Shown piece by piece: positions 58,300 through 60,616 of a DNA stretch of 64,000 nucleotides; the first letter of the stretch is position 1; each line of letters opens with the position of its first letter. The notes beneath the pieces were generated by a model that had not been told where the DNA came from, made no database searches, and was given only the letters and a program-made list of their open reading frames with translations. Made by a program: the position numbers and the translations under genes. This DNA comes from Verrucomicrobiota bacterium (GTDB taxonomy: Bacteria; Verrucomicrobiota; Verrucomicrobiia; Chthoniobacterales; SZAS-18): positions 1-64,000 of the forward strand of contig JAFAXH010000087.1 of NCBI GenBank assembly GCA_019241085.1, in the 5' to 3' direction.

Positions 58300-58425
58300 A
58301 AGAAGCCCGCCTTCTAGAAGCGATGGCACGGCAGGGCAAGCAGTTTTTTCTGGAAAACGTCTGGGGCATTGACGCTGCCGTGCCAGTTTCCTAGGCTGGA
58401 GAGAACGCCCGGCTCCCTTTTTCTC

Positions 58426-59130
58426 ATGCTCCAGGAAATCGAAAAATTGCTCGTTTTGCAGGACCGCGACCAACAGCTAAAAAAGCTCCATCACGAGCAG
58501 ACCGCGCTGCCGACCGAGAAGAAAAAGCTGGCGGACAAACTGGCTGCAGCCCGCGCAACCGCTGACGCCGCGCGCCAGCGGTTGCGCGACAACGAGGTCG
58601 AGCGCCGCAAGCTGGAATTGGAGGTCGAGGCGAAGCAGGGCGCCATCGCGCGTTTCCGCCAGCAGCAGCAGGGCACGCGCAAGAACGAGGAATACCAGGC
58701 GCTCTCGCACGAGATCACGCACGCCGAGAGCCAGATTCGCGCGCTGGAGGATCGCGAACTTGAATTGATGGAAGCCGCCGAGCAGTTGCAAGCGCCGCTG
58801 CAATCCGCCGAAGCCGAGGCCAAGCGCGTTGAGTCTGTCACGCGCGAACAAACCGCCAAACTCGAAGCCGGCGCAACGGGTCTGTCGGACCGCATCGCCA
58901 CACTCGAAGCTGATCGCGCCGCGCAGGCGGCGGCGCTGCCGGAAGAGGTGCACGACTTATACCAACGCCTTTTTAAGCAAAAGGGCGACGCTGCCGTGGT
59001 GCCGCTGGAAGCCGAGATTTGCGGAGGCTGTCACATGCGGACGCCAGCGCAAACGGTGATCCTATTGCGCGCCGAACGGCAACTCGTCCAGTGCCCGAAT
59101 TGCGCACGCATTCTTTACCGCGCTCTCTGA
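58426..59130 (+). CDS. Coiled-coil protein with C4 zinc ribbon
   Basis: 234 aa from the ATG at 58426 (MLQEIEKLLVLQDRDQQL); a TTG at 58369 opens the frame. Residues 5-180 form a long coiled coil, rich in Glu/Lys/Arg/Gln heptads. The C-terminus (about 195-232) is a zinc ribbon with two knuckles, CGGCHMRT and CPNCARIL. Proteins of this kind are widespread and have been proposed to bind nucleic acid; the function is unknown. The PafA-like gene follows after 73 bp. Confidence 0.88.
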   Translation: MLQEIEKLLVLQDRDQQLKKLHHEQTALPTEKKKLADKLAAARATADAARQRLRDNEVERRKLELEVEAKQGAIARFRQQQQGTRKNEEYQALSHEITHAESQIRALEDRELELMEAAEQLQAPLQSAEAEAKRVESVTREQTAKLEAGATGLSDRIATLEADRAAQAAALPEEVHDLYQRLFKQKGDAAVVPLEAEICGGCHMRTPAQTVILLRAERQLVQCPNCARILYRAL

Positions 59131-59203: not shown

Positions 59204-60616
59204 ATGAATCGCATCGTCGGCATCGAAACGGAATACGGCTGCCTGGTCGCCGACGAAAAAGCGCCCCACGGCGCGGATGCCTGGCCGGGCGTGGTCAAGA
59301 ATTACCTCTTTAACAAAGCCGCGGCCGGCGCCATCGACCTGCACTACCGCGATTACGAGGAACCGCCGCGCAACGGCGGTTTTTTGCTCAATGGCGGCCG
59401 GCTGTATCTCGACATGGGACACCTGGAGTATTCCTCGCCCGAATGTCTCGATCTCCTCGACATGGTCGCCTATGACCTTGCGGGCGATCATCTGCTCCAG
59501 TCCGCCTTGCAAAGTTTGGGTGCGACGGAGCAGGTCGCGTTTTTAAAAAATAACATCGACCATTACACCGGCGCGACCTTTGGCTGTCACGAGAACTATC
59601 TCATGAAGCGCGAGGCGCAATTCACGCCGCAGGTGGTGGGCGCGTTGATCTCATTCCTCGCCACGCGGCAGATTTTCACCGGCGCCGGCCGGGTGGGGCA
59701 GGCACACCCGCTGGCCTTTGATTTTGAACTTCCCCGGCCGAGTCTCGCGCCCGTCGATTTCCAACTCAGCCAGCGCGCCGATCACATCGTCAACGACATC
59801 TACCAATGGGTGCAGTTCAACCGCGCCATCATCAACGCTCGCGACGAGCCGCTGGCCGATTACCGCAAATACCGGCGGCTGCATTTGTTGATCGGCGACT
59901 CGAACATGAGTCCCTTCGCCACGGCGCTGAAAGTCGGCACCACGGCGGCGGTGCTCACCTTGCTCGAGGACGGCCACATTCCCGCCGACGTGATTCTCGA
60001 AGACGCCGTGCAGGCGACGCGCGAAATCTCGCGCGACCCGACGCAACAGTGGCTAGTCCGCCTGGAAAATGGCCGCACGGCCGACGCGCTCGACGTGCAA
60101 TGCCGTTTTCTGGAGTTGGCGCAGAAACATTTGAGTGGCAGCGATGAGGAGACCGACTGGTTGCTGGCGCAATGGCAGTTCACGCTCGGCGCCATCCGCG
60201 CGAAACCCGAGGCGTTGCTCGGCGGCGTCGATTGGATCAGCAAGAAATGGCTGCTCGAAGCGTTTCGCGCCGAGGAAAATCTCGGCTGGCAGGATCCGTG
60301 GCTGCAAAGCCTGGACTTGGAGTATCACAATATCAATCCGGCCAAGGGCCTCTTCTTCGCGCTCGAAGCTGGCAAGTCCATCGGGGAATTCAACGCCCGC
60401 GCGCTCGCTGCCCGCGAGGCGGCGGCCAGCGCGCCGCCCGCCAACACGCGCGCCCGCGGACGCTCCGCGGCGGTGCGGCATTTCCAGCAGAGCGGGCAGG
60501 GGAGTTACATTATCAATTGGGACTCAGTTTCTTGTGAAAATCAGGCGCACCTGGCGATGAGCGACCCGTTTCACAACTACGAAAAGCAGGTGCAGAAATT
60601 TTTGCAACGCGTGTAA
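59204..60616 (+). CDS. PafA/Dop-family carboxylate-amine ligase (Pup-ligase-like), orphan
   Basis: 470 aa from the ATG at 59204 (frame open from a TTG at 59183). It belongs to the glutamine-synthetase-like Pup ligase/deamidase family. Seen: metal-binding GIETEYG (Glu8, Glu10), catalytic-type Asp70 in GGRLYLDMGHLEYSSPEC, FLKNNIDHYTGATFGCHENYLM, RRLHLLIGDSNMS, LKVGTTAAVL, and the C-terminal WDSVSCE and SDPFHNYEKQVQKFL. There is no Dop-type loop insertion before the GGRLYLD segment, and the tail resembles PafA, so a ligase is more likely than a deamidase. No Pup/UBact, Mpa/ARC ATPase or proteasome gene is visible in the window. Confidence 0.85.
   Translation: MNRIVGIETEYGCLVADEKAPHGADAWPGVVKNYLFNKAAAGAIDLHYRDYEEPPRNGGFLLNGGRLYLDMGHLEYSSPECLDLLDMVAYDLAGDHLLQSALQSLGATEQVAFLKNNIDHYTGATFGCHENYLMKREAQFTPQVVGALISFLATRQIFTGAGRVGQAHPLAFDFELPRPSLAPVDFQLSQRADHIVNDIYQWVQFNRAIINARDEPLADYRKYRRLHLLIGDSNMSPFATALKVGTTAAVLTLLEDGHIPADVILEDAVQATREISRDPTQQWLVRLENGRTADALDVQCRFLELAQKHLSGSDEETDWLLAQWQFTLGAIRAKPEALLGGVDWISKKWLLEAFRAEENLGWQDPWLQSLDLEYHNINPAKGLFFALEAGKSIGEFNARALAAREAAASAPPANTRARGRSAAVRHFQQSGQGSYIINWDSVSCENQAHLAMSDPFHNYEKQVQKFLQRV

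Follow-up and report, generated by a model that had tools for sequence, protein, structure and literature searches.

Homologs of Pup and PafA in Verrucomicrobia were described by Iyer et al. 2008 (PMC2588565), who included Chthoniobacter flavus in their alignment, gave the end of the modifier as G[EQ] and made the link to the proteasome. The modifier was named UBact in 2017 (Lehmann et al., BBRC 483:946, as cited in PMC12751074). The UBact-proteasome system of Gram-negative bacteria (modifier profile NF033388) has its counterpart in the genome studied here, which likewise carries a UBact over the profile cut-off, 20S alpha and beta subunits, an ARC ATPase, a Dop and a ligase. Here the set is split, with UBact-prcB-prcA about 6 kb from the ligase and ARC-Dop on another contig.

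The stretch of DNA that was analysed, hereafter the window, comprises bases 1-64,000 of a 72,468-base contig (C80), the remainder of which is about 8.5 kb; the assembly has 3.42 Mb in 170 contigs and is estimated to be 87% complete. We propose with high confidence that one gene of the window encodes the ligase, in the role of PafA, that serves a complete proteasome pathway of the UBact (Pup-like) type. The organism is a verrucomicrobium of the Chthoniobacterales type, as its named relatives show. Compared with the verrucomicrobial PafA homologs of Iyer et al. 2008 it is a gene of the same kind in a new species, and what is new here is one more sequence of an already known verrucomicrobial pathway ligase. 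The ortholog of Chthoniobacter flavus is 72% identical to it and is also found near UBact and 20S genes.

The proposed ligase gene and its neighbours

The gene and its features, in window numbering, are the following.

58423-59130, + strand: CT398-type coiled-coil/zinc-ribbon gene, upstream of the ligase
59204-60616, + strand: UBact/Pup-type ligase gene (PafA-like, 470 aa), with an ATG start; from Pfam and NCBIfam profiles and a PDB sequence search
59219-59239, + strand: GIETEYG, residues 6-12, the GhExE ATP-binding motif of the carboxylate-amine ligase superfamily
59411-59413, + strand: Asp70, in the alignment at the position of the catalytic Asp in PafA (C. glutamicum Asp64) and Dop (A. cellulolyticus Asp94)
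59768-59851, + strand: alpha-loop region SQRADHIVNDIYQWVQFNRAIINARDEP, residues 189-216, lineage-specific and unlike actinobacterial PafA or Dop

A first-pass annotation had assigned the protein to the Pup-ligase/deamidase family, and this assignment holds: Pup_ligase (PF03136) is its sole Pfam match, with 426.9 bits against a cut-off of 25 over positions 1-440 of the 441 in the profile, and all the motifs that had been named are present. Besides the GhExE motif (defined in PMC7947786), the open reading frame contains NGGRLYLD, which holds Asp70, CHENYLM, RRLHLLIGDSNMS and SDPF. Residues E8, T9 and E10, as well as Asp70, are unchanged in 29 of 29 orthologs; the three nearest orthologs are 79-82% identical. 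At the equivalog level the protein falls under both NCBIfam cut-offs, with 327.6 bits for PafA (TIGR03686; cut-off 551.3) and 320.5 bits for Dop (cut-off 492.3). Its sequence relatives in the PDB are Dop and PafA only, Dop structures being ranked above PafA.

The neighbours had been correctly named as well, since profile searches with Pfam recovered the CT398-type coiled-coil/zinc-ribbon gene, a DUF4198 gene and a PTS EIIA-2 gene; a ClcB-like chloride channel gene comes next, and all of them are on the + strand. The suggestion that the zinc-ribbon gene might be kept beside the ligase as a conserved partner was rejected, given that a search for its zinc-ribbon motif placed it upstream of the ligase in only 9 of 80 loci, some of them of Chthoniobacter type, and tblastn in a similar number.

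UBact, proteasome, ARC and Dop genes

The first-pass annotation presented the ligase as an orphan. Modifier, Mpa/ARC ATPase and proteasome genes are indeed absent within the 64-kb window, but UBact and both 20S genes lie past its end on the same contig, and ARC and Dop lie on contig C167, so that the missing partners were elsewhere, as one of the two options offered at the time had it. The genes on C80, in window numbering, are listed below.

66280-66456, + strand, past the window end: UBact (NF033388)
66474-67466, + strand, past the window end: 20S beta (prcB), family match
67497-68303, + strand, past the window end: 20S alpha (prcA), family match

UBact, with the sequence MPERTQKPTSPAPWEPKQGDGDGPRSPDVSKPDTKDLLKRMKRVDPNQSKRYRQRTGE, matches the NF033388 profile at C80:66298-66453 with 87 bits against a cut-off of 35, which bears out the earlier guess of a UBact-type system in this diderm lineage. 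The gaps are 17 bases between UBact and 20S beta and 30 bases between 20S beta and 20S alpha, and the block begins and ends about 5.7-7.7 kb downstream of the ligase stop codon. Both 20S assignments are family matches below the equivalog level, with 168 bits for beta (cut-off 192) and 81 bits for alpha (cut-off 139); the beta subunit retains TTILAFK and AGDRR. A scan of small open reading frames for GGE/GGQ-like endings found no modifier, because UBact here ends in RTGE and not in the GGE or GGQ that had been expected; it was the NCBIfam UBact profile that detected it. Small open reading frames next to ARC-Dop on C167 were also scanned, and no modifier was found among them.

On C167, an ARC/Mpa-type ATPase gene (pup_AAA, 457 bits, slightly under the equivalog cut-off of 505) is followed about 20 bp behind by Dop. 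The genome has two PF03136 genes, the window ligase and this Dop, whose product matches the family with 543 bits and carries a Dop loop (KWDYTLEDPHNDARGF); its score for Dop is 474 bits, slightly short of the cut-off of 492, versus 386 for PafA. Since the second PF03136 gene is a Dop, the window gene is the only ligase candidate and not a spare copy. It had been argued that a full UBact/proteasome operon elsewhere would reduce the gene to a plain paralogue; the system is present, but the conclusion does not follow, the other family member being Dop. The genome thus holds the full set of UBact, 20S beta and alpha, ARC, Dop and ligase, six genes whose families and motifs are observed directly. 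The ligase looked alone because the tag and proteasome genes sit just past the window edge; this window-edge effect, together with the split locus, accounts for the lack of partners, the false orphan is removed, and a verrucomicrobial genome with a complete UBact pathway is added.

By analogy with PafA, we infer the reaction, its direction (ligation rather than hydrolysis) and its targets. Using ATP, the ligase would phosphorylate the gamma-carboxylate of the C-terminal Glu of UBact, and a lysine of the target protein would then attack the activated UBact, giving an isopeptide conjugate. The ARC ATPase would unfold tagged proteins and feed them to the 20S proteasome for degradation, and the Dop encoded on C167 would remove the UBact tag. 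Deamidation by Dop would not be needed before ligation in this genome, because UBact already ends in Glu.

At its C-terminus ARC has ...TNRAII in this genome, and other ARC proteins have ...GVSAVV (ARC genes L213, L212, L215 and L216). The mycobacterial Mpa has a GQYL-like end, unlike the ARC ends read here. Behind Dop on C167 there are two consecutive open reading frames in different frames (L007:10388-11119), which look like a single YebC-type gene that a frameshift has interrupted.

Co-occurrence and gene order in relatives

Among 38 genomes of the order, the source genome included, PF03136 is present in 16, and these carry UBact in 15 cases and a bacterial-type 20S beta in all 16; UBact and 20S beta occur in one of the 22 genomes that lack PF03136. 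A second set of 50 further genomes, picked for having an ortholog of the window ligase, has UBact in 49 and at least two PF03136 stretches in 47, a few of which are fragments; this set shares some assemblies with the order-level sample and contains many related genomes, which means that the counts are not independent. In a phylum-wide draw the family was found in 8 of 195 genomes, which makes the pathway patchy across the phylum.

The gene order ARC-Dop-UBact-prcB-prcA-ligase is found in one run in three other Verrucomicrobia (L125, L131 and L132). Chthoniobacter flavus (L067) and a second Chthoniobacter (L119) have UBact, prcB, prcA and an amidase_3 gene behind the ligase, at a distance of no more than about 3 kb. 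In L121 the distance from the ligase downstream to UBact-prcB-prcA is about 5 kb, and the block runs in the opposite direction. Most other loci have no UBact inside the stretch fetched around the ligase, because the gene set is often split.

The 27 distinct UBact C-terminal stretches that were read comprise 11 RTGE and 16 RTGQ. Where a relative has an RTGQ end, the Gln would need deamidation by Dop before ligation, and the need for this step seems to change between lineages. The two ends alternate among the UBact proteins of relatives (L125, L131, L037, L038 and others).

The one genome of the order with UBact and 20S beta and no PF03136 gene (G026, 96% complete; G026:C66:13404-14479) has no ARC-type ATPase either, its best pup_AAA match being 132 bits; either contigs are missing, or the proteasome was retained without ligase, Dop and ARC. 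In G008 the ligase is in two frames and 20S beta has an in-frame TGA (G008:C23:60423-61723 and G008:C15:27970-28650), while UBact and Dop are retained, and either decay or sequencing errors may account for the two broken genes. Two UBact genes per assembly were seen in G009 (C5 and C227) and G070 (C363 and C236).

Ligase, Dop or another enzyme

The absence of a Dop loop, already claimed at first reading, is supported by the alignment and by the spacing before NGGR, with 62 residues ahead of this motif in the ligase versus 88-94 in Dops. According to the Dop-to-PafA residue comparison in Table 1 of PMC7947786, the protein has PafA-type residues at Phe54, Leu63, Gly66 and His188 (C. glutamicum numbering; table positions 7, 9, 11 and 25). 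Actinobacterial PafA (C. glutamicum, PDB 4B0T and 4BJR) has in common with it the fold, the GhExE motif, the catalytic Asp, the lack of a Dop loop, the Leu before the Asp and the His at the start of the alpha-loop. However, the identity is about 32%, the alpha-loop sequence is almost wholly different, and the window ligase lacks the single extra residue that PafA has after the catalytic Asp. The Dop of A. cellulolyticus (PDB 4B0R) shares the fold, the catalytic Asp and the Ser and Pro kept downstream of it, but possesses a Dop loop and the signature VDHAHPEY, neither of which is found in the window ligase; the genome's own Dop has the loop and NDHAHPEY. Among nine tested alpha-loop positions, His188 is as in PafA and the other eight fit neither PafA nor Dop.

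The AlphaFold model of the ligase has a mean pLDDT of 83.6 and is unreliable in the alpha-loop, which is predicted to be helical but where pLDDT stays under 50 from residue 196 to residue 215. A fold search with this model retrieved Dop/PafA structures with E values from 1.5e-23 to 4e-30, Dop being ranked above PafA; the next match is a YbdK-type enzyme at E 3e-7, and glutamate-cysteine ligase is also a weak match. In a tree of 39 rows with long branches, comprising verrucomicrobial and actinobacterial ligases and Dops, the verrucomicrobial ligases, verrucomicrobial Dops, actinobacterial Dops and actinobacterial PafAs form one group each, and a split with support of 95/90 places all Dops on one side and the verrucomicrobial ligases with actinobacterial PafA on the other. 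Nevertheless, the AU test did not reject joining the verrucomicrobial ligases with the verrucomicrobial Dops (p 0.30), as a duplication confined to Verrucomicrobia would have it, and weakly rejected joining them with the actinobacterial Dops (p 0.029). The tree is compatible both with common descent with actinobacterial PafA and with a separate origin of the verrucomicrobial ligase.

The ligase role is assigned from the company of the gene, from its missing Dop loop and from the existence of a separate Dop in the genome, and not from a signature unique to PafA. Counting against it are the two missed equivalog cut-offs, the first rank of Dop structures, the AU value of 0.30, the lack of the PafA insertion, the Dop-like Ser and Pro and the eight alpha-loop positions that fit neither enzyme. 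Several of these points would suit a second, loop-less Dop, acting as depupylase or deamidase, in that Dop structures are the best sequence and fold matches and the HLEYSSPE context is Dop-like. We regard this as very unlikely, given that the protein has no Dop loop, that a bona fide Dop is encoded separately in this genome and in nearly every relative, that the Dops form their own side of the tree, and that the pathway would be left without a ligase. A true orphan, whose pathway was lost and which now works on another substrate, as the first-pass annotation offered as its other option, would agree with the absence of partners within the window. The genes found past its edge and on C167 already refute this for the present genome, and orthologs co-occur with UBact in the second genome set, so that this reading is even less probable. 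Least credible of all is a glutamine synthetase or a gamma-glutamylcysteine/YbdK-type ligase unrelated to protein tagging, a reading that family and fold already refute: the superfamily fold is common to them and the weak fold matches fall there, but the only Pfam match is Pup_ligase, even the poorest of the Dop/PafA fold matches surpasses the best YbdK match by about 16 orders of magnitude, and the gene sits in UBact operons of other Verrucomicrobia.

If the gene is taken as the UBact ligase, the question raised is why its alpha-loop is near-invariant in the lineage yet unlike that of actinobacterial PafA and Dop. In actinobacterial PafA the alpha-loop is the part that contacts the target. 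A speculative reading, to which we give a minor share of probability, is that the verrucomicrobial UBact ligase may be a third branch of the family in which the alpha-loop was replaced by the near-invariant segment HIVNDIYQWVQFNRAIINARDEP, with a different recognition of target or UBact, or with a ligase arising independently from a duplicated Dop-like ancestor. Among 94 verrucomicrobial ligase sequences, from loci that overlap in part, 90 share exactly the alpha-loop region SQRADHIVNDIYQWVQFNRAIINARDEP.
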